A stretch of 64,000 nt of DNA from Rhodospirillales bacterium URHD0017 (GTDB lineage: Bacteria > Pseudomonadota > Alphaproteobacteria > Reyranellales > Reyranellaceae): assembly GCA_900110395.1 (NCBI GenBank), contig FODP01000002.1, positions 372,001 through 436,000 of the forward strand, given 5' to 3'. A program made the position numbers and the translations under genes. Shown here in pieces: positions 1,187-15,388 of the stretch (positions are counted from its first letter, which is position 1; every line of letters starts with the position of its first letter). The notes under the pieces were generated by a model. It had not been told where the DNA came from and did not search any database. It saw only the letters and a program-made list of their open reading frames with translations.

Positions 1187-3508
1187 TTATTTTCGCAGCA
1201 TGTCGCGGATCTTGAGCGCGAGCGCGTCGAGCGCGAAGGGCTTGGTCACCATCTCCATGCCGCGGGCCAGGAAGGGTGCGTGGCCGGTGGCATGCTCGGC
1301 GTAGCCGGTGACGAACAGGATCTTCAGCTCCGGCCGGTGCTGGCGGGCGACCTCCGCGACCTGCCGGCCGTTCATGCCGGGCAACCCGACGTCGGTGATC
1401 AGCAGGTCGAGCGGCGTGTTCGACATCAGGATGGGCAGCGCTGCCTGGCCGTCGCTCGCCTCCAGGCAGGCATAGCCGAGGTCGCGCAGGACGTTCGAGA
1501 TGATGAGGCGCACCGCCGAATCGTCCTCGATGACCAGCACGGTCTCGCCGGCGCCAGTGGCGGCATCGCGCGCCGGCGCGATGGCTCTCGCCTCGACGGC
1601 GCCCTGGTAGCGCGGCAGGTACAACCTGAAGGTCGTGCCGACATCTTCCGCGCTTTCGACCCGGATATGGCCGCGCGACTGCTTGGCGAAGCCATAGATC
1701 ATCGACAGTCCGAGGCCAGTCCCCTGGCCGAGCGGCTTGGTCGTGAAGAACGGCTCGAACACCTTCGAGAGCGTGTCCGGTGACATTCCCACCCCGGTGT
1801 CGCCGACGCACACCACGGTGTAGTCGCCGGCGTCGATCGTCTCCTGGCCGTATTGCTCCCGGCTCTTGATGACCACGTTCTCGGTGGCGATGGTCAGCGT
1901 TCCGCCCCGGGGCATGGCATCGCGGGCGTTGATCGCGAGGTTGAGGATCGCGTTCTCGAGCTGATGGGCATCGGTGAGTGCCGGACCAAGGCCTGGCTCG
2001 AGCTGAACCACCAGCTTGATCTTTTCGCCCAGGGTGCGCTCCAGCAGGTCCTGCATGCCGTTGATGAGCTGGTTGACGTCCACCGCCTTGGGGTCGAGGG
2101 GCTGGCGGCGCGCAAAGGCGAGCAGCCTGTGGGTCAGGGCGGCCGCGCGGTTGGCGGCGCCGATCGCACCGTCCATGAAACTCTGGACATCGTCGTAGCG
2201 GCCGTCGCGGATGCGGCGCTTCAGCACTTCCATCGACCCGATGATGGCCGTCAGCATGTTGTTGAAGTCGTGCGCGATCCCGCCCGTCAGCTGGCCGATC
2301 GCGTCCATCTTTTGCGAATGGCGCAGCGCCTCCTCGGCGTGGTGCAACGCCGCCTCGGCCTCGCGTTCCGCGGTGACGTCGCGGCCGACGGCCTGAAGGA
2401 GATTGTCGGCGGCGACCGCACTCCACTCGATGCGCCGGCTGGCGCCATTGCCCGTCCGCATTGTGAGCTCGATCAGTCTCGGTGCCGTGCCCCGCGACAG
2501 CGCATCCAGCCCGTCCTGCAGGACCGCGCGCTCCTCGGGAACGACGAAGTCCATGACATTGGCGCCGATCAGTTCGCTTGCCTGCCAGCCCAGCAGGTGC
2601 GTCCAGGCTGGGTTGACCGAGTTCAGCGTGCCGTCGAGACCTCCCACCATCATGACGTCGGTCGACAGCGTCCACATGCGGTTGCGGTCGGCGGTGCTCT
2701 GGGCAACGCGTTTCTCGAGGGTCTGATTCAGCAGGCGTAAGGCATCTGCCGCCATGCGCCGCTCATTGACGTCGCGCAGGATCGCCGTGACGAAGGTCCT
2801 GCCTTCGCTGGTCCATCTCGATGCCGACGCCTCGAGGTAGCTGGGCGAGCCGTTCTTGCGCCGCGCCGTGACCTCGATGGGTCGGCCCAGGCCTTCGCCG
2901 GCGCGGGCGGCCTTGAAGGCGGCGCTCCACTCCTGCGGATTGGCCAGGAACGACGACAGCGGTTGGCCGACGAGCTCGTCCGGTGAATAGCCGAACTGCC
3001 GCGCCGCCGCCGGGTTGACGAGCTGGATCGTGCCGTCGGCATCGAGGGTCAGGATCGTGTCGGGCGCGCTGCTGACGACGGCATCGTAGCGCGCGTTCTG
3101 ACGCTCGCGCAGGATGCGCTCCCGCCCCGCCACCACGGTGACGTCGAGGACTTGCAGCAGGCAACGCAGGTTCGGCCGCTTGCCGATTGGGCGGACAGAA
3201 ATGTTGTGCACCAGCTCGCGGCCGGCTGGGGTACGCAACCGCAGCATGGCGGGATGAAGCGTGTGCGTCACCAGGCTGGAGGCGCCCAGCTCCAGGGCCT
3301 GGGCGATCGCCGTCGCCAGCCGCGGCGGAACGTTGCCGGGAAACAGCTCGTCCAGGCGGCGGCCTCGGGCGGCGGCGTCCGCTATGCCACTCGCGTTCTC
3401 GATCCATGCATTCCAGCCGATCACGCGACGATCGCCATCGAGCAGGATCAATCCGAGATCGACGGCGTCGAAGACGCCGGAAACGCCGTTCCGGTCAGGA
3501 GCGTTCAT
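1187..3508 (-). CDS. PAS hybrid sensor histidine kinase with receiver
   Basis: A 773-residue soluble hybrid kinase with no membrane segment. Three PAS-like modules occupy roughly residues 10-125, 140-255 and 275-390; the second contains [17 protein letters not shown]. HisKA follows with phospho-acceptor His413 in [10 protein letters not shown] HATPase then shows [18 protein letters not shown] and [13 protein letters not shown]-terminal receiver starts near residue 650 ([11 protein letters not shown]), with the acceptor Asp in [13 protein letters not shown]. It is the last gene of the chemosensory operon and overlaps the end of cheC by 14 bases, so it is probably co-transcribed with it. It may feed a second input into the cluster; its output partner is unknown. 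Confidence 0.9.
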
Positions 3509-4142
3509 GGGACGGAACCGAACCGCCTGACGTTCGCTCGATGAAGTCGCGCAGCAGCAAGCGCAGCGCGCTGAGCGACGGCACGTCCATGACCATGGCG
3601 ATGTATCCGCCGATGTCGCGGTCGCGGATGGCGAAGTTGATGTAGAGGAACATCACGACGTCGCCCGCTTCCGGCGGCGGCTCTAGGTTGAAGAAGACCG
3701 CCGCCTCGCCGCGCACGATCTCCGGCAGCGACATCTTCAGATTGCGCTGCAGCAGGTTGGCGATGGTGGCCAGGCAACCGTTCAGGATGATGTTGCCGAT
3801 CTCGGCGAGGGCTTCCTGTTCGAGCTCGATGATCTCCTCGAGACTGAGCTCGCCGCCGATGACGGCGCGCACCAGCTCGAGGCTCTTGGTGTCCGGGAAG
3901 ATCAGGAACGCCCGGCCGGTGATATCGCCCTCGAACACCTGGTGGATGCCCACGAGATGATTGACATCGTTTTCGCTCAGGGTCCTGATCGCCGTGTCGC
4001 GGCTGACCAGCGCGACTTTGGGCACCGACAGCAGCACCTGCTGGCCGACCATGTCCCGCAGGCTGGTGGCAGCACGGCCGACGCCGATATTGACCATCTC
4101 GGTCAGGGCATCGATCTCGAGCTCGTTGAGGAGCTCGCTCAC
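3495..4142 (-). CDS. cheC: CheC-type chemotaxis phosphatase
   Basis: A 215-residue CheC-family protein, expected to dephosphorylate CheY-P. Both active-site signatures are visible. The first is ALTEMVNIGVGRAATSL near residues 13-29, with the E-x2-N core. The second is EALAEIGNIILNG near 109-121, again E-x2-N, each followed downstream by the conserved Pro. It overlaps the upstream receiver gene by 4 bases (ATGA) and the downstream kinase by 14, indicating translational coupling. CheC is common in Firmicutes and Archaea and less so in alphaproteobacteria, which makes its place here notable. Confidence 0.88.
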   Translation of the reverse strand: MSELLNELEIDALTEMVNIGVGRAATSLRDMVGQQVLLSVPKVALVSRDTAIRTLSENDVNHLVGIHQVFEGDITGRAFLIFPDTKSLELVRAVIGGELSLEEIIELEQEALAEIGNIILNGCLATIANLLQRNLKMSLPEIVRGEAAVFFNLEPPPEAGDVVMFLYINFAIRDRDIGGYIAMVMDVPSLSALRLLLRDFIERTSGGSVPSHERS

Positions 4143-4516
4143 CGCGCGGCCAGTCGATGGGCCGCGTCGCCCAGGAACTCTGCCATCGCTTTTTCGGTCA
4201 GCGGTTTCTGCAGGAATGCTGCGCCAACCTCGCGCGCGCGCGTCACGACTTCGACCTGGTGGTTGGCGGAGATGACCGCCAAGGGCAGTGCGGGCTTGAG
4301 CTTGAGCAGCTCGGCTGCGAGATGAAGGCCGTCGTGGCCCGGCATGTTGAAGTCGAGGATGGCGAGGTCGAACGCATCCTTCGAAGCGAGCGCGAGGGCC
4401 TCGTCCGCGTTGGCCGCTTCGACACGGGTCCAGTCCGGTTGCAGAGTCGTCAGGGCCTTGGCGACGGCCATCCGCGCAAGCTTGCTGTCGTCGACGACCA
4501 GAACCCTGTAACCCAT
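4139..4516 (-). CDS. single-domain response regulator in the che operon
   Basis: A 125-residue stand-alone receiver: acidic pair Asp9-Asp10 (VLVVDDSKLAR), acceptor Asp55 in LAILDFNMPGHDG, and conserved Lys in FLQKPLTEKA. I chose the ATG at 4516, which has a GGGGAG ribosome site 8 bases upstream. A longer frame to 4585 adds residues that do not look like a receiver. It overlaps cheC by 4 bases, so its most likely partner is the CheC phosphatase. This is the second CheY-like protein of the cluster, perhaps a phosphate sink or an alternative output. A 107-bp gap separates it from cheA and could hold an internal promoter. Confidence 0.88.
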   Translation of the reverse strand: MGYRVLVVDDSKLARMAVAKALTTLQPDWTRVEAANADEALALASKDAFDLAILDFNMPGHDGLHLAAELLKLKPALPLAVISANHQVEVVTRAREVGAAFLQKPLTEKAMAEFLGDAAHRLAAR

Positions 4517-4623
4517 ACTACCCGCTCCCCATGATCCGGCAGACCTGGACTGTCTCGTTTCAATAGCACCCGACGACCCCCGCATATTGGCGACGCCCGG
4601 CGGAAATCGTGATGCAACGTTTG

Positions 4624-6540
4624 TCAGTCGTCGGCGTTCCCGAAGACTTCGCCAAGATCGAGGACGATCAGGACCCTGCCATCGCCCAGCAGGGTGGTGC
4701 CGTCGATTCCGGGAATACCGGCCAGCAGACCCTCGGGCGGCTTCAGCATGACGTCCAGGCGGTCGCCCAGGCGGTCGACCTCAAGGCCGCCAAGCTGGCC
4801 TGCGACCGCGACGATCAGCACGTTCGCATCGCCTTCGGCGGCGCGGGCCCCGCGCCCCAGGGCCTGACCGAGATCGATGACCGGCAGCGTACGGTCGCGA
4901 AGCACCATGGCCCGGGCGGCGCCGACGGGCGAAATGGCGCTGCGCCCGACGCGAACGGTCTCGACGACGGCCTCCAGGGGCACGCCGAAGACCTGGCCGG
5001 CAGCCTCGACCGTGAGGACCTGCGTCATGATGACGGTGAAGGGCAGGGTGAAGCGCACGGTCGTGCCGCGCTGCCGCCGGCTCGACAGCGAGACGCGGCC
5101 GCCCAGCCGCTCGATCGTGTTGCGCACGACGTCCATGCCGACGCCCCGGCCGGAAAGGTCGGTGACCCGGCTGGCGGTCGAGAAGCCCGGCGCGAAGATC
5201 AGATTGATGGCCTCTTCGTCGGACATGGCGACGATTGCCGCTTCCGGCGCCGCGTTGCGCCGGCGGGCGACCTCGCGGACCCGGGCCACGTCGATCCCGC
5301 GGCCGTCATCCTCGACCTCGATCACCACGTGCTCGCCCTGGCGCTCCGCCCGCAGATGAATCGTCGCCGTCGCCGGCTTGCCGAGCGCGGCCCGCTCCGA
5401 GGCGTCCTCCAAACCGTGATCCAGCCCGTTGCGCAGGACATGAAGAAGGGGCTCGGCGATCGCCTCGACGATCGTCTTGTCGGCCTCGGTCGTGGCGCCT
5501 TCGATCATCAGGCGCGCCGGCTTGCCGAGCGCCGTGGCCATTTCCCGGACGAGGCGGGGGAAGCGCTGGAAGGCGTGCTGCAACGGCAGCACCCGCAGGC
5601 TGAACACCGAGCGCTGCAGCTCGCCTATCAGGCGATCGAGCGCGAGATGCTGGTTCTTGAGCGCGACAGCGAGGGCTCTGGGATCGCCTTCGCCCTGCGC
5701 ACGCGCGGCCGAATGGCCGATGGCGTTCTTGGCGATCAACAGCTCGCCGGTGAGGCGAACGAGGCTATCGATACGATCGACATCGACACGCAGCGTCGCT
5801 TCCGGCGCCTGCGGGCTTAGCGTGCCGGGCCGTTCGGGTGCTGGCTCGGCCAGTCCCTCGAGAATTCGGTCGATGGCCTCGATCATGGCCTCGGCATTGC
5901 CGGTGACCAGGCTGCTTTGCAGCGGACCCTCGAGATCCGCCGCGTCCAGCGAGCGGCCGTGATGGCGCAACACGTTGGCGGCGATGCGGCTTGCCGATTC
6001 GAGCCGTGCGGCGGCCGCACCCTCCGGCGCCGGCTCGGCAAGCATCAGCTTCTGCGCTTCGAGAAGGTCGCGCTCGATGGTCGACACGCCGGTCGAGTCC
6101 GCAGGCCGCCTCGTGGTGGCGTCGCCAGGACCGCGCGGGGCGAGAGATGCCGTGTCGGGCGATGCGAGTGTGGCGAAGCGACGGACGAGGTCGTCGGCGG
6201 CAGCATCGGCATCGGCAGGAAGCTCGCCGCTCGACCGCATCCGGTCGATCCAGGCGCTTACCTGGTCGAGACACGCCAGGCACAGGTCGATCAATCCAGG
6301 CGTCACCGGGGCGCTCTTGGATCGGACGGCGGACAGCACGTCCTCGGCGGCATGCAACGCCCTCGACATCGCGACGAAGTCGACGATGCCTGCCGCACCC
6401 TTCAGCGTGTGGAAGGCGCGAAAGGCGCCGTCGAGGCGTTCCCTGTCGTCCGGGTGCTCCTCGAGCGCGAGCAGGTCGTCGTTGCCCTGGGCCACGAGTT
6501 CGCGGCCCTCGATCAGGAATTGCTCGACGAACTCGTTCAT
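4624..6540 (-). CDS. cheA: chemotaxis histidine kinase CheA
   Basis: A 638-residue CheA. The P1/HPt domain is at the N terminus, with phosphorylated His44 in AFRAFHTLKGAAG. A Pro/Ala-rich linker follows rather than an obvious P2 domain. The P3 dimerisation segment includes DSLVRLTGELLIAKNAIG. The P4 ATPase has the N box LLHVLRNGLDHGLED, G1 DDGRGIDVARV and G2 SGRGVGMDVVRNTIERLGG. A P5 CheW-like domain ends the protein. The start at 6540 was chosen because its ATG overlaps the cheY stop as ATGA; an in-frame start 15 bases upstream is less likely. It would phosphorylate the two receivers and CheB of this operon in response to the soluble receptor. Confidence 0.95.
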   Translation of the reverse strand: MNEFVEQFLIEGRELVAQGNDDLLALEEHPDDRERLDGAFRAFHTLKGAAGIVDFVAMSRALHAAEDVLSAVRSKSAPVTPGLIDLCLACLDQVSAWIDRMRSSGELPADADAAADDLVRRFATLASPDTASLAPRGPGDATTRRPADSTGVSTIERDLLEAQKLMLAEPAPEGAAAARLESASRIAANVLRHHGRSLDAADLEGPLQSSLVTGNAEAMIEAIDRILEGLAEPAPERPGTLSPQAPEATLRVDVDRIDSLVRLTGELLIAKNAIGHSAARAQGEGDPRALAVALKNQHLALDRLIGELQRSVFSLRVLPLQHAFQRFPRLVREMATALGKPARLMIEGATTEADKTIVEAIAEPLLHVLRNGLDHGLEDASERAALGKPATATIHLRAERQGEHVVIEVEDDGRGIDVARVREVARRRNAAPEAAIVAMSDEEAINLIFAPGFSTASRVTDLSGRGVGMDVVRNTIERLGGRVSLSSRRQRGTTVRFTLPFTVIMTQVLTVEAAGQVFGVPLEAVVETVRVGRSAISPVGAARAMVLRDRTLPVIDLGQALGRGARAAEGDANVLIVAVAGQLGGLEVDRLGDRLDVMLKPPEGLLAGIPGIDGTTLLGDGRVLIVLDLGEVFGNADD

Positions 6541-6926
6541 GCCGGCAACCCGCACATGATCGAGACGTGTTGGACGAGCACGTCCTGGGCGACAGGCTTC
6601 ACGAGATAGAAGTTGGCGCCGGCCGAGCGCGCGGCGCGCCGGTCGTGCGGCCCTGCTTCGGTGCTGATGACCAGGGCCGGAATGGAGGCGATTGGCGGCG
6701 CCTGCTGGCGCAGCGAGCGCAGGAAGGTGAAGCCGTCCATCTGCGGCATGTTCACGTCGACGATCAGGAGGTCGGCCGGCTCGCCGAGCAGTTTCTCGAG
6801 CGCCTCGACGCCGTTCAACGCCTCGTCGACCTCGAAGCCCGCGCGTTCCAGCGCGTCGCGATAGTAGCGACGGACCAGGCTCGCATCGTCGATGATGAGG
6901 ATGCGCTTGCTCGACGCCTCAGCCAT
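6537..6926 (-). CDS. cheY: CheY-like chemotaxis response regulator
   Basis: A 129-residue receiver: Asp13-Asp14 (LIIDDASLVRR), acceptor Asp57 (LLIVDVNMPQMDG), Thr/Ser in ALVISTEAG and Lys in FYLVKPVAQD. There is no output domain. The start at 6926 (MAEASSKR) overlaps the cheR end by 8 bases; the upstream in-frame GTG/ATG alternatives give a non-conserved tail. It is immediately upstream of cheA and coupled to it (ATGA), so it is the likely principal phosphorylation target of this CheA. No flagellar genes are visible, so whether the output is motility is unknown. Confidence 0.92.
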   Translation of the reverse strand: MAEASSKRILIIDDASLVRRYYRDALERAGFEVDEALNGVEALEKLLGEPADLLIVDVNMPQMDGFTFLRSLRQQAPPIASIPALVISTEAGPHDRRAARSAGANFYLVKPVAQDVLVQHVSIMCGLPA

Positions 6927-7785
6927 TCGAGCGTCCCCCGTTTCCGACAGCCAGGGGCCGTTGGTAGACGATGGCATCGGAGAAGCGACGCACCTCGAAC
7001 AGCGGGGAAATGCGGCTCATGGATTCGGTATGCCCCAGGCATATGAAGCCGCCCGGCACGAGGGCCTCGAACAGGTTCTCGGCCGCCACGCGGCGGGAGG
7101 CGTCGTCGAAGTAGATCAACACGTTTCGGCAGAAGATGACATCGAATAAGCCATGCTGGCGGGTTTGCGAAGCGTTGGTGATGTTGGCCGAGCTGAACTG
7201 GACCGACTGGCGCAACTCGGGAACGACGCGCCAGCGGTCCTTTCCCGCCGGCACAAAGTACTTTTCGACGAGCTGGGGCGACAGCCGCATGAGCGCCCGG
7301 GCGCCGTACTCGCCTTCGGCGGCGGCCGCGGTGCATTGGGTGTCGATGTCGGAGCCGATGATCTCGATGTCCTGGACGTCGACCCCGGGCCAGTTCTCGA
7401 GCAGCCAGATGGCGATCGAGTAGGGCTCCTCCCCGGTGGCGCAGGGCACCGACCATATGCGCAGCGCGTCGCCCGGCCGCTTGGCGCGCACGCGCTCAGC
7501 CAGCAGGTCGGACGACAGGCAGCGCAACTGGTGGTCTTCGCGGTAGAAATAGGTTTCGTTGACGGTGAAGGCGTTGATGAATTTCTCGACCTCTCCGTCG
7601 GCGTCGCTGCGCAGGTAGGCGAAATAGGTCCAGAAGGACGCGATCCCGAGCGCGTTCATGCGATCGGAGATCCGCCGCTGGACATAATAGCGCTTGGCCT
7701 CGCCAAACAGCATGCCGGTGCGGCGATAGAGGAACTCGCAGATCGCGCGGAGTTCCTCCTGCGATACCGGCTCGACCTCACTCAC
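6919..7785 (-). CDS. cheR: chemoreceptor methyltransferase CheR
   Basis: A 288-residue SAM-dependent methyltransferase that methylates receptor glutamates. The all-helical N-terminal domain (residues 1-80) contains FLYRRTGMLFGEAKRYYVQR. The Rossmann domain shows FYREDHQLRCL, the SAM motif IWSVPCATGEEPYSIAIWL, IIGSDIDTQC and FDVIFCRNVLIYFD. It overlaps the HEAT-repeat gene upstream by 4 bases and cheY downstream by 8. The receptor of this operon has no visible C-terminal CheR-docking pentapeptide, so methylation would not use tethering. Confidence 0.94.
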   Translation of the reverse strand: MSEVEPVSQEELRAICEFLYRRTGMLFGEAKRYYVQRRISDRMNALGIASFWTYFAYLRSDADGEVEKFINAFTVNETYFYREDHQLRCLSSDLLAERVRAKRPGDALRIWSVPCATGEEPYSIAIWLLENWPGVDVQDIEIIGSDIDTQCTAAAAEGEYGARALMRLSPQLVEKYFVPAGKDRWRVVPELRQSVQFSSANITNASQTRQHGLFDVIFCRNVLIYFDDASRRVAAENLFEALVPGGFICLGHTESMSRISPLFEVRRFSDAIVYQRPLAVGNGGRSNG

Positions 7786-8390
7786 CGCCAGTCGCGCGCC
7801 GGCGCAGCGATGCGTTCGGTCGCGACCCTAAGGCTGAAGGCAATGAAGGGATCGCCGGCGAAGCGGGCTCCGCAACGCAGCAGGGAGGGCACGGCTTCCG
7901 GCCGGCCGATCTCCGCCAGCACTTCGATCGCTGCGGCGCAGACGTTCCTTTCGGTCTCCCGTTCGAGCAGGTCGCACAGCAGGCGGTTGGCCTCTTCGTC
8001 GGGCAGTCCGCGCGCGAGCTCGCAGCTCAACAGGCGGACATCGGCATCGCCGTCGGTGAGCAGAGCCGGCAGATGGGCGCGGCAGGCCTGCGGCATCGCC
8101 CGCAACGCATCGACGGCGCCGGTGCGCAAATTGGCGTCGTCCGACCGGAGGTAGGGCACCACGACCGCAGCGCTCTCCGGCGTCGCCAGGCGCGCCAGGC
8201 CGGTGAAGATCGCCTCGCGCACGCGCGGATCGCTTTCGCGCGACAGGGCATCGGCGAGCAGCGCGAGCCCATCGGGCCTTTCGGCCGCGGCGCGCACGGC
8301 CGCCCAGCGCTGCTCCCTCGTGCCCTCGCCAAGCGCCGGGGGCGCGGCGGCGGCGGGAGTCTGCGGCGAAGGCTTGCGCACGAGCGGCAT
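7782..8390 (-). CDS. HEAT-repeat protein encoded between cheB and cheR
   Basis: A 202-residue protein of paired short helices in the HEAT/PBS-lyase style. Helical pairs such as SRESDPRVREAIFTGLARLA, SDDANLRTGAVDALRAM, DGDADVRLLSCELARGL and RETERNVCAAAIEVLAEIG repeat about every 30-33 residues. It has no catalytic motif, signal peptide or membrane segment, and probably acts as a protein-protein adaptor. It overlaps cheR by 4 bases and follows cheB by 1 base, so it is made as part of the adaptation module. A role in scaffolding CheB/CheR or the array is inference from position only. Confidence 0.85.
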   Translation of the reverse strand: MPLVRKPSPQTPAAAAPPALGEGTREQRWAAVRAAAERPDGLALLADALSRESDPRVREAIFTGLARLATPESAAVVVPYLRSDDANLRTGAVDALRAMPQACRAHLPALLTDGDADVRLLSCELARGLPDEEANRLLCDLLERETERNVCAAAIEVLAEIGRPEAVPSLLRCGARFAGDPFIAFSLRVATERIAAPARDWR

Positions 8391-8391
8391 G

Positions 8392-9486
8392 TCACGGCAC
8401 CAGCTTCGTCAGCCAGCCGGCGATCGCAGGCAGCGGCAATACCCAGTCCGCGCCGCCGGCCGCCACCAGTTCGCCGGGCATGCCCCAGACGACGGCCGTC
8501 TCTTCGGCTTCGGCGATGGTGCGGCCACCCCGCGCACGCAGCTGGGCCATCGCCTCGGCGCCGTCCGAGCCCATGCCCGTCATGAGGACACCGACGATCT
8601 GGCCGGGCGAGACATGATCCATGGCAGATCTAACGAGTCTGTCGGTGCTTGGATGCCATGGGTAATCGGCTTGTGAGCGGACCGGCGCGACGACGACGCC
8701 CGAGGGGCGCCGGTCGATCACGAGGTCGGCGTCGCCCTTGCCGATATAAGCGCAGCCGGGCTCGAGCTGCATCGTCCGAACGACCTCGACGACGCTGAGA
8801 GCCGACACGCCGTTCAGCCGCCGGGCGAGAGCGCCCGTGAAGGTCGCCGGCATGTGCTGGGCGACAACGATCGGCCAGCGAAAATCGCCGGGCAGGACCG
8901 TCAGCAGCGCTTCCAGCGCCGGCGGTCCGCCGGTCGAGGTGCCGACCACCACCAGCCCTTCGCCGACGGCGCGCCGCGGCTCGCGGCTGTCGCGTCGACC
9001 GGTCTCCCGATCGCCCTCTTCCAGGCGAATTGCCGGCGCGTCGCGGCCGATGCGGTGCCGGACACGCTCCCTGAGGCGAGCGCTCGACCGCATCCGCGCG
9101 GTCGATGCAGCACGCACCTTGGTGATGAGTTCGTCGGTCAGCTCGTCGATGTGCAGCGAGATCGCGCCTTCGGGCTTGGCCACGAAGTCGATCGCGCCCA
9201 GGCGCAAGGCCTGCAGCGTGACCTCGGCACCCTCGGCGGTCAGCGACGACACCATGACGACCGGGCAAGGGCGTTCGATCATGATGCGGTCGAGACACGC
9301 CAAGCCATCCATCTGCGGCATGTGGATGTCGAGCGTCACCACATCCGGTTTGAAAACAGCCAGAAGCTCGAGCGCTTCCAGCCCGTTGCGTGCGAACTGG
9401 ACGTCGAAATCGGCTTCCTTGGAGAAGATGCGGCCCAGCAGCTTTCGCATGAGGGCCGAATCGTCGACGACCAGGACCTTGGTCAC
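8392..9486 (-). CDS. cheB: chemotaxis methylesterase/deamidase CheB
   Basis: A 364-residue two-domain CheB. The N-terminal receiver shows VLVVDDSALMRKLL and acceptor Asp in VVTLDIHMPQMDG. After a linker, the C-terminal esterase shows the catalytic Ser in VVGTSTGGPPALEALL, the catalytic His in VVAQHMPATF and the Asp in GVLMTGMGSDGAEAM. It removes receptor methyl groups and is activated by CheA phosphorylation. It overlaps the triple-CheW gene by 4 bases, so adaptor and adaptation enzyme are translationally coupled. Confidence 0.95.
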   Translation of the reverse strand: MTKVLVVDDSALMRKLLGRIFSKEADFDVQFARNGLEALELLAVFKPDVVTLDIHMPQMDGLACLDRIMIERPCPVVMVSSLTAEGAEVTLQALRLGAIDFVAKPEGAISLHIDELTDELITKVRAASTARMRSSARLRERVRHRIGRDAPAIRLEEGDRETGRRDSREPRRAVGEGLVVVGTSTGGPPALEALLTVLPGDFRWPIVVAQHMPATFTGALARRLNGVSALSVVEVVRTMQLEPGCAYIGKGDADLVIDRRPSGVVVAPVRSQADYPWHPSTDRLVRSAMDHVSPGQIVGVLMTGMGSDGAEAMAQLRARGGRTIAEAEETAVVWGMPGELVAAGGADWVLPLPAIAGWLTKLVP

Positions 9487-10994
9487 AAGCTGGCGCGCTC
9501 CGCCTTGGCCCGGAACGTGTCGAGCAGGCCACGCTCGGCGCGCGTCAGCAGCTCGGCGGGATCGAGCAGCAGGACGATGCGCCCTGCCTGCTCGAGGTTG
9601 ACCACGCCGTGGACCAGCTTGACGGTCTCGTTGCTGAGGTTGGGCGCCGGTTCGATCTTGTCGGCCGGGCAGCGCAACACCTCGGACACCGAATCGACGA
9701 TCAGCCCCGCCTTGTGGTGCTCCGTCCTGACCACGACCAGGCGACGCGAAGCGCGCCCGTCCAGCGCTGGCATGTCGAAGCGCCGCCGCTGATCGACGAC
9801 CGGCAGCACCTCGCCGCGCAGGTTGACGACACCTTCGAGGAACTTCGGGGTCCGCGGCAGTCGCGTGATCTGATCGGGGACGCGAGCGACCTCGTCGACA
9901 GCCTCGATTGGCAGGCCGAACTCGTCGTCGCCAAGCCGAAACACCAGGAACTGGCGCTCTTCGCGCTGGCTACCGGGCGCTTCCTTGTCGCCCTCGCCGG
10001 TCGGGCCCCCGCTCGCCTTCAGCCGCTGCATGACGTCCTCCCGGAACAGTTGCTCCGGCGCCAGAACCGACACCAGCCGTCGTCCGTTGTCGCCGCGATA
10101 GATCGCCGAGATCTTGGCCTCGCCTCCGGCGCGGGCGGACAGCACCGGCGGGATCTTTTCGATCAGCTCGGCATCGGCCGGGAAGATGCTGCGCATGCGG
10201 TCGGCCAGCAAGCCGACCAGCGCGCCGCCGACCCTGGTGACGACGATCTTCTCTCGATCGGTGCTTTCTGTCGGTTTGGTGAAACCGAGCAGGCCGCGCA
10301 GCGACAGCAGGGGCAGCAGCGTATCGCGAAACGGCGTCACGCCGAGGACCAGTGCCTCGCTGCCCGGCATCGCCGCCAGCGCCTCCGGCGTATCGACGAT
10401 CTCCTGAACGGCATCGAGGGCGAGGGCGTATTCCTGGCCGGCCACGTCGAAGCTCACCAGCATCTGCCGGTCCTCGCCGCCAGCCGCCCCGTCGATCTCT
10501 CTTTCCGGCACCGCGGCCCCGGAAGGAGTGACTGCCAGCGCGCGCCGCGGCCGCGCTCGCGCCTCCTGAACGAAGGTAGCGCCGATCAGCCCTTCGATAT
10601 CGAGGATCTTGGCGATGGCGGTCTTGCCGTCGGCGGCGAAGGCGCCTTTCAGCCGCTCGCCCGGCCGAGTCGCGAGCTCGGCCTGGCGCGTCTCGATCTG
10701 TTCGGGCTCCACGGCGACCAGCGCCTCGACGACGTCGACAGCCAGCGCCACCGGCGCCGCGCCGTCGAGGACGATCGCCCGCGTCGTTGCCTCGGCCGAT
10801 TCCTCGGCGCCCACCAGCCCGCGCACGCTGGCGACGGGCAGGACGCTGCCCCGCAGGTTGGCCAGTCCGAGCAGCCCCTTGGGGGCCTGCGGCACGCGCG
10901 CCACGGCAGGCAGGCGGATGACCTCCGCGACCTGGTTCGCCGGCAGGGCGTAGAGCTCGCCGCCGACGCGAAACGTCAGGAAGCGCTCAGCCAT
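9483..10994 (-). CDS. cheW: triple CheW-domain coupling protein
   Basis: A 503-residue protein built of three CheW-like domains in tandem, roughly residues 1-145, 175-325 and 345-495. Each begins with the CheW strand pattern ([59 protein letters not shown]). Each also has the LxGLxNLRG-type segment, clear in domains 1 and 3 ([24 protein letters not shown]) and altered in domain 2 ([12 protein letters not shown]). Canonical CheW is about 150-170 residues. CheW bridges receptors and CheA; a three-domain version could link several receptor or kinase units. It overlaps the receptor gene by 8 bases and cheB by 4. Confidence 0.92.
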
Positions 10995-12948
10995 TCTGCT
11001 GCTTGAGCGTGTCGGCCAGTGAAGCGATCTCTTCTATGGCCGCGGCAAGGTCCTCGGCGCCGCTGGCCTGCTCGGACGCCGCCGTGGCGGCTTGGCGGGC
11101 GGCGTTGCTCGCTTCCTCGGCGGCGGCCGCGATCTGTCGCGCGCCGGCCGCCGTCTCGCCGGCGGCCGACAGGATCTGCTCGGCACCCTGCAGGATGGCG
11201 TCGTTGGCGGCGCGCAGCGCGCCGAACTCGCGCTCCACCTTGTCGAGCGCGCCGATTACCGACCGGTTGCTCTGGACCTCGACCTCGACGGAATCGACGA
11301 TCTGCTCGAGGTCGCGGCGCAGCGCGGCAATCTGCTCGAGGATGCCGCCGACCGTTTCCTTGATCCGATCGGCGCTGTCGGAAGCTTCGCGGGCGAGGCT
11401 ACGAATGTCGTTGGACACGACGGCAAAGCCGCGACCCGCCTCGCCGGCGCGCGCGGCCTCGACCGAACCGCTGACCGCCAGCATGGTGGTCTGGACCACG
11501 ACCAGCGAGATGCCGGACACGATCTTCTCGATGTTACGGCCGACCGATTCCAGGCGCGCGATCGTCTTGAGGCTGGCGCGCGTGTTGTCGAGGCCGGCCG
11601 AGACGTCGGCCACCAGCTTGGCGACCGTGCCGCTGCTCTGCTTGAGGTCGTCCGCCATCTTGGCGACGCGCCCGTTTGTCTGGACGGCGTTCTCCTGTGC
11701 CCGCTTGGCGCTCCGCTCGATCTGGCTGAGGGCTGCCGAGGTCTGCTGCGTCGCGGCGGCCTGCTGCTGGGTTCCGCGGTTGATCTGGCCCTGCGCCGCC
11801 ATGATCTGTTGCGAGGCGCTCGACAGTTCCTGGATGGTGGCCGACAGTTCCTCGGCCGTCGCGCTGATCTGCTCGGTGGAAGAGAGGTCCACGCGGCCGG
11901 TGCGGGCGGCTTCCGCGATCCGCGCCAGCTCCCGCGCGGCCGTCTGACCCTGCTCGAGCGACTTGGCCTGCTCCTGCACCGCCGCCTGGGCCTCGCTGGC
12001 GGCCGACGATTGTTCTTCGGCTGCGCTGGCCACCAGGGTCGCGCCTTTTTCCGCTTCGGTCGCGGCGCGGTCGGCCTCCAGCGCTTCGGTCAGGGTCTGC
12101 TGGCTGCCGTCGGCGACCTTCTGCATGTCCGCGCGCAGGCCGTCCAGGACCTCGACGGCGCCGGCGCCAGCCTTCGATTCGTTGACCGCGGCTTCGGCCG
12201 CTCGGCTCAGGGCGGCGGCGACCTCGCGCACGTCGGCCTGGATCGCCGCGGCGAGCTTCTGCACCTCCTGCGAGCTCCTATCGGAGGTCTCGGCGAGTGC
12301 GCGCACTTCGTCGGCGACGACCGCGAAGCCGCGGCCGTGATCGCCGGCGCGCGCCGCTTCGATCGCGGCGTTCAACGCCAGGAGATTGGTCTGGTCGGAG
12401 ATGCGGCTGACCGCGCCGGTGATCTCGCTGATGTCCTGGGCGCGCCGCTCGAGTTCGCGGATGAGCTCGACCGAGGTGCCCTGGCGGACGCCGTTGCGTT
12501 CGATGGCGCGCACCGACGTGCCGATCTGCCCCGCGGTTTCGGCAAGCACCACCTCGACCGCTTCGGTGCGGCGGCGTGTGGCCTCCGCCTGGGTACGCGC
12601 CGTGCCGAGGTTGGCGACGACCTGCTTGATGGCGGCCAACTGCTCCTGCGAGGCGCCGGCGGCCTCGCTGGCGCCGCTCGCGATCTGTTCCATGGCGCGG
12701 CGCAGCTCTTCCGCGGCGGCCGCGGCCTCGCTGAGACCGCTGGCCAGCTCCTCGGTGGCGGCGGCAAGGCGTTCGGAGACCTTGTCCTGCGGACGGGCAG
12801 ATACGCCTCGGGTCGCGCCGTTCTGCTGGCCGTTGCGCGCCGGCGGGCGGGTCGACGAGCCAGTCGGGGGGCGGGCCGGCGCACGGATCGGCGGTTCGCT
12901 CGGTGGGGCGGTTCCGCCGGTCAGCTTGGACTTCTTGACGAGAGCCAT
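10987..12948 (-). CDS. soluble methyl-accepting chemotaxis protein with two signalling hairpins
   Basis: A 653-residue receptor with no membrane segment, HAMP or recognisable sensor domain. The first 50 residues are Pro/Arg-rich and disordered; the rest is heptad-rich helix. A canonical hairpin tip lies near residues 180-220 ([20 protein letters not shown], then [14 protein letters not shown]). A second, diverged tip lies near 475-520 ([16 protein letters not shown], then [14 protein letters not shown]). Two tips in one chain is the arrangement of Vibrio cholerae DosM, which stabilises cytoplasmic double-layer arrays. The C terminus ([10 protein letters not shown]) lacks a CheR pentapeptide. 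It is the first gene of the che operon and sets its architecture. Confidence 0.93.
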
Positions 12949-13335
12949 TGGATTCCCTGGGACAATGCGGATTGCTCGCGATGAAACGCAGTCGCACGCT
13001 ATCGGCCGCTGGATAGTGCGACCCTAATGCAATTTGCCGCCCTCTCCAAGGCAGGCGGCTCGCCTGACGACGTCGCACCGCTGGCGCGCGTGTCTTGTGT
13101 GGTGAGGCTCGGCGGATTTGTGCAGGCAGCGGTCAGTTGGATGTCGGCGCCGACGGAGCCGTGCATCAGGCCCACCGCTTGTTCGATTAGAACCTGGAGC
13201 GCGGCAACGAACGCGCTGACCCTGCGTTGCGATATAGCGCAGGAGGAGACCGACATCGGCCTTCGCGCGACCCCCACAGTGACGGCTGACCGCGGTGGCG
13301 GAGTGTTCGATGGGCGCCGAGCGAGGGAGCTGGTC
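12949..13335. other. 387-bp divergent intergenic region between the che operon and the ROK kinase
   Basis: This must hold the promoter of the minus-strand che operon and that of the plus-strand kinase. The plus-strand frame is open from 13027, but its translation is Arg/Ser-rich and unlike the conserved protein, so I read it as non-coding leader. I see no strong palindrome or recognisable sigma-70 hexamers. The AGGGAG at 13324-13329 is the likely ribosome site of the kinase. Confidence 0.45.
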
Positions 13336-14409
13336 TTGAGCAACACGGACGAAGCCGACGCAGATGCCCGGCCGCATACTCCCCTTGCGCACGGGAGCCG
13401 GGTGCTGCCGGCCGTCACGGTCGACACCTATAACGAGGAACTGCGCGATGACGATGGCTTTGTCGGCGATCGCGCCAGCCGCCGTGCCTTCCGGGCGATA
13501 CTGGCCGACTGGCGTGAACGCCTGAAGGAGCATGGCGAGGATCCGCTGGGCGCCACGCCGACGGAGGAGGTCTCCAAGGCGAAGCTCGACAAGATGATGG
13601 CGAGCGACGATCCGAAGTCTGCCGCCCTCGTCCATACCGTAGTGGAAGAATTCGCCGTCGAGCTGGCGACGGTGGTGCGTCGTTTCATGCGGCTCGCGAG
13701 CTGGAAGGATACCCAGCGTATCGTGCTGGGCGGCGGCCTGATCGCCAGCCGCATCGGCGAGCTGGCCATGGGTCGCGCCTCGCTCATCCTGACCGGCGCC
13801 GGCGTCACGGTGGAGCTGTCGCCTATCCAGAATCATCCCGACGAAGCCGGCCTGATCGGCAGCGTGCAGCTTGCTCCGTCCTGGATCCTGGCCGGCCACG
13901 ATGCCATCCTCGCCGCCGACATCGGCGGCACCAACGCGCGCGTCGGCATCGTCGAGCTCAATGCCGACAAGCGCGGCAGCGTTGCCGAAGCCGATGTGTG
14001 GAAACGCCAGCACTGGCGGCACTTTGACGACAAGCCAAGCCGCGAGGAGGCGATCGACCGCATCGCCGACATGCTGGTCAAGCTGATCGAGCGTGCCGAG
14101 GGCGAGAAGGTGAAGCTCGCCCCGTTCATGGGCATCGGCTGCCCCGGCCTGATCGACGATCACGGCACGATCCTGAAGGGCGGCCAGAACCTGCCGGGCA
14201 ACTGGGAAGGCGACGGCTTCAACCTCGCTGTCGCGCTGGGCAAGCGCCTGCCGCGGATCGGCGGTCACGACGTCTTCATCCAGATCCACAACGATGCCGT
14301 CGTTCAGGGCCTGAGCGAGGTTCCGAACATGAAGGACGTCAGCCACTGGGGCGTGATGACCATCGGCACGGGCCTCGGCAACGCCCGCTTCACCAACCGG
14401 ACGGACTAG
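13336..14409 (+). CDS. ROK-type sugar kinase, apparently circularly permuted
   Basis: A 357-residue ASKHA/ROK-like kinase. I start it at a TTG at 13336, preceded by AGGGAG six bases upstream; upstream codons read as non-native sequence. Motif order is unusual. The adenosine-type segment RIVLGGGLIASRIGELAMGR lies near residues 128-147. Phosphate-1 (ADIGGTNARVG) comes only near residue 194, then GIGCPGLID and LPGNWEG. The phosphate-2 segment GTGLGNARFTNR is at the very C terminus. In ordinary ROK or glucokinase proteins DIGGT is N-terminal and GGG is near the C terminus. The substrate is unknown; sugar or glucose phosphorylation is inferred from the motifs. The cyclase gene follows 10 bases later. 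Confidence 0.8.
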   Translation: MSNTDEADADARPHTPLAHGSRVLPAVTVDTYNEELRDDDGFVGDRASRRAFRAILADWRERLKEHGEDPLGATPTEEVSKAKLDKMMASDDPKSAALVHTVVEEFAVELATVVRRFMRLASWKDTQRIVLGGGLIASRIGELAMGRASLILTGAGVTVELSPIQNHPDEAGLIGSVQLAPSWILAGHDAILAADIGGTNARVGIVELNADKRGSVAEADVWKRQHWRHFDDKPSREEAIDRIADMLVKLIERAEGEKVKLAPFMGIGCPGLIDDHGTILKGGQNLPGNWEGDGFNLAVALGKRLPRIGGHDVFIQIHNDAVVQGLSEVPNMKDVSHWGVMTIGTGLGNARFTNRTD

Positions 14410-14419
14410 GAGCTCCCGC

Positions 14420-15388
14420 GTGGAAGCGCCGCGCCTGGAACGCAAGCTGGTCGCCATCCTCGCCGCCGACGTCGAGGGCTACAGCCGCCACATGGAACGC
14501 GACGAAGCGGCAACGCTGGCCGCCCTGTCCGCCCATCGCGTGATCGTCGATGACCTCATCAGCTCCTTCAATGGCCGCATCACCGGCACGGCCGGCGACA
14601 GCGTGCTGGCGGAGTTCGCCAGCGTCGTCGATGCCGTCGACTGTGCGGTGAAGATCCAGGACGCGCTGGCCGTGGCAAACGAGGCATTGCCGGATGAGCA
14701 TCGCCTGCGGTTTCGCATCGGCATCAATGTCGGCGACGTCATGGTCAAGGACGGCGACATCTTCGGCGACGGCGTCAATATCGCCGCCCGCCTCGAATCC
14801 CTGGCCGAGGCGGGCGGCATCTGCATCTCGCGCGGCGTGCGCGACCATGTACGCAAGATGGGCCGCTTCGCCTTCGAGGACCTGGGCGAGCAGAGCGTCA
14901 AGAACATCGACCAGCCGATACGCGCCTTTCGGCTGCGCGGCGTGGATCCCACGACGGCGCCAGCGCCGATTTCGCCGGCGACGGCTTCTCCAGCGTCAGC
15001 CGACCACTCCTCCTCCGACGGCCCCGTCCTGCGGCAGCCGGCCAGTCCTGCCGAGGAAGCGGAGTTCGAGCTGACGTTCTGGGAGTCGATCAAGGACAGC
15101 GGCAATCCGGCCGAGTTCGCCGCCTACCTCGAACGCTACCCGGCAGGCACGTTCGCCGCGCTCGCCGAAACGCGCCGCCAGGCGTTGCTGGAAGAAGCGG
15201 CCGTGCCGGCGGCGGAGGCAGCCGCGGCCGACCAGGAGGTCAGCGCCGTCGAGCTGGCGTTCTGGGATACCGTCAAGGACAGCGCCAATCCTGAAATGTA
15301 TTCCGCCTACCTCGAGCGCTATCCCGAAGGCGCCTTCGCCGCCTTGGCGAAAGTTCGCGTCGAGGAGCTCGGATCGCCGCCCCCGTGA
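14420..15388 (+). CDS. class III adenylate/guanylate cyclase with C-terminal FW/YP repeats
   Basis: A 322-residue protein starting at GTG 14420, with AGGAG at 14408-14412 overlapping the previous stop. Residues 6-170 form a class III cyclase domain: metal Asp in LAADVEGYSRHM, GDSVLAEF, second metal Asp in INVGDVMVKDG and DGVNIAARLESLAEAGG. A low-complexity linker follows. Two copies of a roughly 40-residue repeat lie near 215-257 and 277-318, each with an FW...D/N P...YL-RYP-G-FA-LA pattern. Such repeats also occur in caspase-like and TPR proteins and probably mediate binding. The product is likely cAMP, by family. It may form an operon with the kinase. Confidence 0.9.
   Translation: MEAPRLERKLVAILAADVEGYSRHMERDEAATLAALSAHRVIVDDLISSFNGRITGTAGDSVLAEFASVVDAVDCAVKIQDALAVANEALPDEHRLRFRIGINVGDVMVKDGDIFGDGVNIAARLESLAEAGGICISRGVRDHVRKMGRFAFEDLGEQSVKNIDQPIRAFRLRGVDPTTAPAPISPATASPASADHSSSDGPVLRQPASPAEEAEFELTFWESIKDSGNPAEFAAYLERYPAGTFAALAETRRQALLEEAAVPAAEAAAADQEVSAVELAFWDTVKDSANPEMYSAYLERYPEGAFAALAKVRVEELGSPPP

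Follow-up and report, generated by a model that had tools for sequence, protein, structure and literature searches.

A double-hairpin chemoreceptor is the only receptor gene detected in four Reyranella genomes without FlhA and shares an N-terminal peptide with a HEAT-repeat protein

We analysed a window of 64,000 nucleotides (contig FODP01000002.1, positions 372,001 to 436,000) from Rhodospirillales bacterium URHD0017, in which a chemosensory operon begins with DosM, a chemoreceptor that carries two signalling hairpins in one chain. The operon is almost certainly an F9-class (DosM) system. DosM is the only receptor gene detected in this genome and in three others of the genus Reyranella, where no match to FlhA was found. 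Taking everything together, we think it probable that the bacterium has no flagella and relies on this operon as its sole chemosensory system. The finding is valuable chiefly as a minimal F9 system from a genus that lacks FlhA, and for a short N-terminal peptide that DosM shares with a HEAT-repeat protein of the same operon.

The first-pass annotation had placed a soluble receptor with two signalling tips at 10987-12948. The open reading frame at that position is real and encodes 653 amino acids; its strand, which the annotation did not give, is minus, and a plus-strand reading as a receptor was rejected because those bases encode none when read forward. Two stretches of the protein match Pfam MCPsignal (PF00015), with 169.2 bits for a cut-off of 34.6 (E 9.5e-50), and in the whole-genome search tips 1 and 2 score 105.4 and 70.6 bits, both above that cut-off. 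At the centre of each tip stands a glutamate, residue 197 in tip 1 and 497 in tip 2, exactly 300 apart, so the claimed spacing of about 300 residues holds, as does the description of the second tip as diverged but recognisable. No other Pfam family matches DosM at E <= 0.001, hence no sensor domain match, and there is no transmembrane-like stretch (maximum 19-residue hydropathy 1.75), in agreement with the annotation. The protein is 93% identical to the DosM of Reyranella soli, the nearest named relative; named relatives put the window genome in Reyranella, which confirms the alphaproteobacterial host that had been proposed. Comparisons below use a homologue set of 73 DosM sequences, namely that of the window and those from 72 of 80 relative loci. 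The parts of DosM are:

10987-12948, minus strand: DosM, chemoreceptor with two signalling hairpins, 653 amino acids (Pfam MCPsignal)
12922-12948, minus strand: DosM residues 1-9, conserved N-terminal peptide MALVKKSKL (motif in 65 of 73)
12793-12921, minus strand: DosM residues 10-52, variable linker, predicted disordered (predicted local distance difference test, pLDDT, and entropy)
11902-12792, minus strand: DosM hairpin 1, residues 53-349 (model, and sequence match to 2ch7 and 3ja6)
12277-12420, minus strand: tip 1, residues 177-224, canonical (profile of 73 sequences)
10993-11886, minus strand: DosM hairpin 2, residues 355-652 (model, and 2ch7_A alignment)
11377-11520, minus strand: tip 2, residues 477-524, diverged but constrained (invariant residues, entropy)

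The repeat extends well beyond the tips. When the profile of the homologue set was compared with itself, an offset of 300 scored 1.12 and the runner-up 0.29, against a mean of -0.41 and a standard deviation of 0.22 over the offsets tested, and we therefore read DosM as a tandem duplication of the whole hairpin and not of the tip motif alone. At this offset the window protein has the same residue in 82 of 295 pairs (0.278; other offsets between 280 and 320 reach at most 0.164), and 59 of the 82 lie outside the tips. Methylation-like pairs, defined by what we take to be their consensus pattern, repeat at -131 and -96 relative to both tips. The tip spacing is 300 in 59 of the 73 proteins, with a full range of 297-305, and the variation sits in the junction, where 18-26 residues separate positions 345 and 365.

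Structure prediction, which the annotation had proposed as a check, also gives two hairpins. The AlphaFold2 model (45 sequences; mean pLDDT 87.9, predicted template modelling score, pTM, 0.65) has helices at 53-349 and 355-652 with a single break at 350-354, its secondary-structure line leaving the tight tips unresolved; pLDDT is below 50 at residues 1-4 and 6-50, a stretch that takes in the N-terminal peptide and nearly all of the linker, and residues 10-50 have a mean entropy of 2.42 bits. In a structure search, model residues 349-653 align with the whole 2ch7_A hairpin (305 of 309 residues, Z 13.6, 4.2 A) and residues 358-628 with the E. coli receptor chain 8c5v_I (271 residues, Z 12.6, 2.1 A). 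For helical bundles a Z of up to about 13 can mean little, according to the tool's own warning, and the hairpin assignment therefore leans also on sequence matches: those of hairpin 1 join residues 59-336 to 2ch7 and 62-336 to 3ja6 (E 2e-18), and residues 433-573 match 3g6b (E 5.5e-12). Hairpin 1 by itself is absent from the structure table, which shows one chain per entry, so its absence is no argument against it. A single hairpin, the outcome that the first-pass annotation had named beforehand as speaking against its proposal, appears neither in the model nor in the sequence matches.

Tip 2 has a signature of its own. Among the 73 sequences Q486, M489, G494, E497 and D514 are invariant, V492 is found in 70 and S493 in 59, with N at position 493 in 11; in tip 1, L192, N193 and A194 are present in all 73. 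Mean entropy is 0.82 bits for tip 2 and 0.67 bits for tip 1, against 1.55-1.83 bits for the arms. We considered decay of tip 2 and reject it, because the constraint on its columns comes close to that on tip 1; judging from these columns, tip 2 is specialised, not decaying. The signature is also present in gammaproteobacteria, Desulfovibrio and an acidobacterium, and most of the non-alphaproteobacterial DosM rows printed have N at 493. The three domains of the adjoining CheW3 protein differ little in conservation (69 rows), so none can be assigned to tip 2.

DosM heads the operon, as had been annotated, and genes on the same strand follow down to 1187:

9483-10994, minus strand: CheW3, three CheW domains, 503 amino acids (Pfam CheW, three stretches, E 1.8e-90)
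8392-9486, minus strand: CheB methylesterase with receiver domain (Pfam; catalytic motifs present)
7782-8390, minus strand: HEAT-repeat protein, 202 amino acids, start MPLVRK (Pfam HEAT_2; solenoid model)
6919-7785, minus strand: CheR methyltransferase (Pfam CheR and CheR_N)
6537-6977, minus strand: CheYa, receiver-only regulator, start codon uncertain (Pfam Response_reg)
4624-6555, minus strand: CheA with Hpt, dimerisation, ATPase and CheW domains, start codon uncertain (Pfam; motifs present)
4139-4585, minus strand: CheYb, receiver-only regulator, start codon uncertain (Pfam Response_reg)
3495-4142, minus strand: CheC/CheX-type CheY phosphatase, two active-site motifs (Pfam CheX, CheC)
1187-3508, minus strand: hybrid histidine kinase with three PAS stretches, HisKA, ATPase and receiver (Pfam)

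The CheC/CheX protein scores 45.2 bits with CheX and 41 bits with CheC, both above the Pfam cut-off, and carries DALTEMVNIGVG and EALAEIGNIIL, which are presumably the active-site motifs of this family. Each of five compared genomes, four of the genus Reyranella and one (G075) from another family, has all ten genes, ordered as in the window and sharing a strand; the G075 operon has a second CheC copy. The annotation had regarded DosM as the only local input of the operon, which is not supported, as there is another candidate input: the tenth gene, the hybrid kinase with its three PAS stretches, ends the operon in the window and in all five of these genomes. At least 9 kb of downstream sequence is available for 61 of the 72 relatives, where genes were called by similarity to the window proteins; CheW3, CheB and CheR are present in 61 of the 61, CheA in 58, CheC in 53, the kinase in 48 and the HEAT protein in 18. 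Upstream of DosM, divergent genes on the plus strand (13027-15388) comprise a frame that matches the ROK family and a protein with an adenylate/guanylate cyclase domain, and they have no match in the five compared stretches.

According to PMC9321776, which like the other papers named here is cited for portions of its text, DosM and CheW3 are unusual architectures unique to the F9 class, which is complete in 64 of 2781 species, and 98% of DosM homologues have no sensory domain. Because the double-tipped receptor and the neighbouring triple CheW are this published pair, we assign the window operon to F9. The other features of the class are here as well: tandem signalling domains, an adjoining adaptor with three CheW domains, CheA, CheB, CheR and CheY, and a DosM without sensor.

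The window genome (G000) is an 8.18 Mb assembly in 62 contigs that is 99.64% complete. With 25 of 25 candidates scored, its single MCPsignal gene is DosM; it has one CheA and no match to FlhA. DosM was found in five of 65 Reyranella genomes, with 12 candidates scored per genome: G000, G012, G054, G041 and G001. G012 is Reyranella soli NBRC 108950, which carries the operon and in which a single receptor gene and a single CheA were found, and G041 (the same as L040) falls within Reyranella, though named Enhydrobacter. DosM is the only receptor gene detected in four of the five (G000, G012, G041 and G054); further receptors joining the array, an expectation that comes from Vibrio cholerae and lies outside the published F9 definition, were not found in these four. 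One CheA each was found in G000, G001, G012 and G054. FlhA was found in none of the 65 genomes, and the same search was positive in 4 of 14 control genomes. PilT does not exceed the family cut-off in any of the five DosM genomes, four of which have weak partial matches, and this gives no support for PilT-driven twitching either.

Across the genus, 10 of the 65 genomes have any MCPsignal match. Six genomes (G001, G002, G020, G027, G036 and G048) hold one or two other MCPsignal genes despite FlhA being found nowhere in the genus.

A lone receptor in a genome without FlhA is an unusual feature compared with published F9 systems. A 2020 review (PMC7534058) states, in the portion cited, that no genome with F9 as its only system was known then, and it infers that a second receptor is necessary in V. 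cholerae; in 2022, 3 of 72 species were reported to have F9 as their sole system, and 97% of F9 species to be flagellated (PMC9321776). It is this published record that makes a lone F9 system notable, and the 3 of 72 species make it rare, not unheard of. Our literature search, which covered titles and abstract openings and few subscription journals, found no paper on a Reyranella chemosensory system.

The DosM of the window begins with MALVKK (minus strand, within 12922-12948) and the HEAT-repeat protein with MPLVRK (minus strand, 8373-8390). M[AP]L[VIK][KR] opens DosM in 65 of the 73 sequences, two of them with a GTG start; a degenerate motif lies further in for two (L063 and L070), and six have no motif, one of these being cut by a contig end. 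Hairpin 1 has a conserved start, which a variable linker of 36-77 residues separates from the motif. All 19 HEAT relatives, from alphaproteobacteria to Acidobacteria and an actinobacterium, fit the looser pattern M[APG]L[VIK]{1,2}[KR], with M1 and L3 invariant in 20 rows. For six of these HEAT proteins (L084, L089, L090, L093, L103 and L112) the motif-bearing start was chosen among several possible ones, and the resulting lengths of 198-212 residues are consistent with the family. The HEAT model (mean pLDDT 91.5) shows no helix in the first 24 residues, where confidence is low (block means 58), and continues as an alpha solenoid; its structure matches are repeat solenoids only, many of them designed proteins.

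In 86 loci (1.63 Mb), the loose pattern occurs at 113 of 38,693 possible starts of open reading frames of at least 100 amino acids, and 96 of the 113 have the size of DosM or the HEAT protein. Three of the remaining 17 are DosM pieces (L077, L105 and L112). Seven of the other 14 were inspected: six are internal codons of longer frames, and the seventh belongs to L101, where the motif follows a stop by one residue in a frame of 314 residues that corresponds to no known gene. A check of 30 loci (6 DosM, 5 without a frame and 19 with other receptor frames) found the motif near the start of 0 of the 19 other receptors, 7 of which run off the left end, so that 12 were truly testable. An RNA-level signal is unlikely, as codons 2-5 vary synonymously in 62 sequences, and selection seems to act on the peptide. 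Within Reyranella, the HEAT family is present in 5 of 65 genomes, precisely the five with DosM (E <= 1e-10; 48 candidates scored per genome).

From these patterns we read the common N-terminus of DosM and the unrelated HEAT protein as a docking peptide; that two unrelated proteins of one operon have the same tethered end suggests one common binding site. By geometry, the DosM N-terminus would lie far from both tips and near the methylation region, which makes CheR and CheB candidate partners besides CheW3. The motif is kept in DosM where no HEAT gene was found, so the partner would not be the HEAT protein alone. The same literature search found no paper on a common DosM/HEAT N-terminal motif.

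Some DosM starts differ. Four frames (L070, L071, L095 and L106) appeared 397-512 residues longer ahead of hairpin 1; for L071, L095 and L106 a sensor in this extension is unneeded, as a MALVK start occurs within the frame at its normal position. The DosM proteins of L094, L100, L107 (Desulfamplus) and L109 (a metagenome-assembled genome, MAG, of Flavobacteriales) have no MALVK start, the Desulfamplus proteins sharing another N-terminus (MAKTLAKP or similar), and the CheW3 proteins of L094, L100 and L109 are just 25-26% identical.

If the F9 operon is indeed the only chemosensory system of this bacterium, the two tandem hairpins would make up the receptor, and tips 1 and 2 would each dock on CheA and CheW3, most likely in a free-standing cytoplasmic array of DosM alone. 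DosM, having no sensor, would receive its input via partners, either the PAS hybrid kinase or proteins meeting the conserved N-terminal peptide, with the HEAT-repeat protein and the adaptation enzymes among the candidates. CheR and CheB would adapt DosM, and the output of CheA would pass to CheYa and CheYb, be reset by the CheC/CheX phosphatase and reach a target other than flagella. In a more specific and rather doubtful version, DosM alone would build an array whose two faces differ, the baseplate at tip 1 being canonical and that at tip 2 specialised; the peptide shared with the HEAT protein would set its state, both proteins competing for, or being bridged by, one mid-plane partner. Such an array would read intracellular partner proteins, not ligands, and control something other than movement.

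Several points weigh against a self-sufficient DosM system. In V. cholerae, DosM occupies every other trimer, and a partner receptor was inferred to be needed (PMC7534058, in the portion cited). G001 has two further receptor genes besides DosM, and 47 of 49 other DosM genomes hold MCPsignal matches beyond the two of DosM, so DosM usually has company. The exceptions with DosM matches alone are L041, a 2.6 Mb MAG, and L057, a Rhodospirillales MAG. FlhA is present in 44 of the 49, with no match in L049, L052, L057, L062 and L080, so that L057, outside Reyranella, has a lone DosM and is FlhA-less as far as its MAG sequence goes. In G041, a second CheA dimerisation-domain match lies outside the F9 operon, at G041:C85:2319-2501 in a 952-amino-acid frame. 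The monomer model of DosM appears to pack the two hairpins side by side, and the end-to-end rod, which the predicted monomer does not establish, is carried over from tomography of V. cholerae DosM. The array, its make-up of DosM alone, its input route and its output are all things that we infer.

The side-by-side packing suggests a different geometry, a covalent pseudo-dimer in which the chain turns back at 350-354, so that the hairpins join into a single four-helix bundle and their tips share one end. DosM would then be a built-in receptor heterodimer for one baseplate, with no need of a double layer. Unrelated helical proteins align over both hairpins together (127-581, up to Z 16.0), as a side-by-side monomer model would have it, and the junction is short, with small variable residues. 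However, the pTM of the model is just 0.65, a monomer prediction may join the hairpins merely because receptor dimers are four-helix bundles, and V. cholerae DosM is an extended rod standing in both baseplates with a signalling domain at each end (tomography, PMC7534058, portion cited); we consider this geometry unlikely. DosM could also be a scaffold only, with the PAS hybrid kinase as the real sensor, phosphorylating CheYa or CheYb directly and using the array as a platform. The kinase carries three PAS stretches and a receiver, is the last operon gene in all five compared genomes and lies downstream in 48 of 61 relatives. It was not detected in the other 13, where weak or distant versions could be missed, and these include every listed non-alphaproteobacterial relative (L084, L088, L089, L090, L093, L094, L103 and L108), while the presence of CheB and CheR in 61 of 61 suggests that receptor adaptation matters. 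On this evidence a role as mere scaffold is possible, with the odds against it.

That a second receptor escaped detection, say because its signalling domain has diverged strongly or because it sits in an assembly gap, would suit the 62 contigs of the assembly and the partner receptor inferred for V. cholerae. We hold it to be quite unlikely, given that all 25 candidates were scored in a nearly complete genome and that three further Reyranella genomes give the same single-receptor result. A cluster recently acquired and idle in Reyranella would agree with the presence of DosM in only 5 of 65 genus genomes and with a tree that suggests horizontal spread. This we judge very improbable, as the ten frames are intact in the window and are found in the four other Reyranella DosM genomes, down to about 71% identity, with both tips kept.

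In a quick tree, the four Reyranella-type DosM rows group together (100) and nest in a 12-row set with Caulobacter, Phenylobacterium, Aquabacter, Belnapia and Bradyrhizobium (100). Together with the presence of DosM in few genomes of the genus, this suggests horizontal spread; many horizontal transfers have been inferred for F9 generally (PMC9321776, portion cited). CheW3-like proteins also occur on large plasmids in 22 records (Azospirillum, Agrobacterium vitis, Novosphingobium and others), 17 of them covering at least 80% of the query and all below 60% identity. The DosM frame is split in two in L077 (Phenylobacterium sp. J426) and L105 (an uncultured Rhizobiales MAG), by decay or sequencing error.

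The function of F9 is an open question, and V. cholerae offers 45 receptors and three systems as the background against which to ask it; there, deletion of the F9 CheA had no detectable phenotype under standard conditions (PMC7534058, portion cited). Reyranella, with a named strain and no FlhA, lets a DosM-only array, its input and its output be asked about directly, and the shared DosM/HEAT peptide is a concrete handle on the missing input.

Among known systems, other alphaproteobacterial F9 clusters (Caulobacter sp. S45, Bradyrhizobium sp. SSBR45G, Aquabacter spiritensis, Microvirga, Rhizobium and Methylobacterium) resemble the one described here in their tip spacing of 297-305, in having CheW3, CheB and CheR and mostly CheA, CheC and the kinase; they differ in their extra receptor matches (47 of 49), in FlhA (44 of 49) and in having the HEAT protein in only 18 of 61. 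The soluble receptors of Thermotoga maritima (3g67 and 2ch7) have the same hairpin fold and no membrane span in the solved pieces, with one hairpin and one tip in contrast to the two of DosM. The cytoplasmic arrays of Rhodobacter sphaeroides are likewise built from single-tip receptors. These arrays have two baseplates in the cytoplasm, about 30 nm apart, and the arrays of V. cholerae are without their curvature (PMC3964821, portion cited). The closest parallel is DosM (VC1403) of V. cholerae F9, or cluster I, which according to the published portions also has a double signalling domain, no sensor, a concatenated triple CheW and CheA. The first-pass annotation had called our receptor DosM-like, and its two full hairpins, missing sensor and triple-CheW neighbour sustain the name, the likeness being by published description and not by sequence. 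The setting is what differs: V. cholerae is a flagellated cell with three systems, where other receptors are thought to join DosM, whereas in the window genome DosM is the sole receptor found and FlhA is absent.

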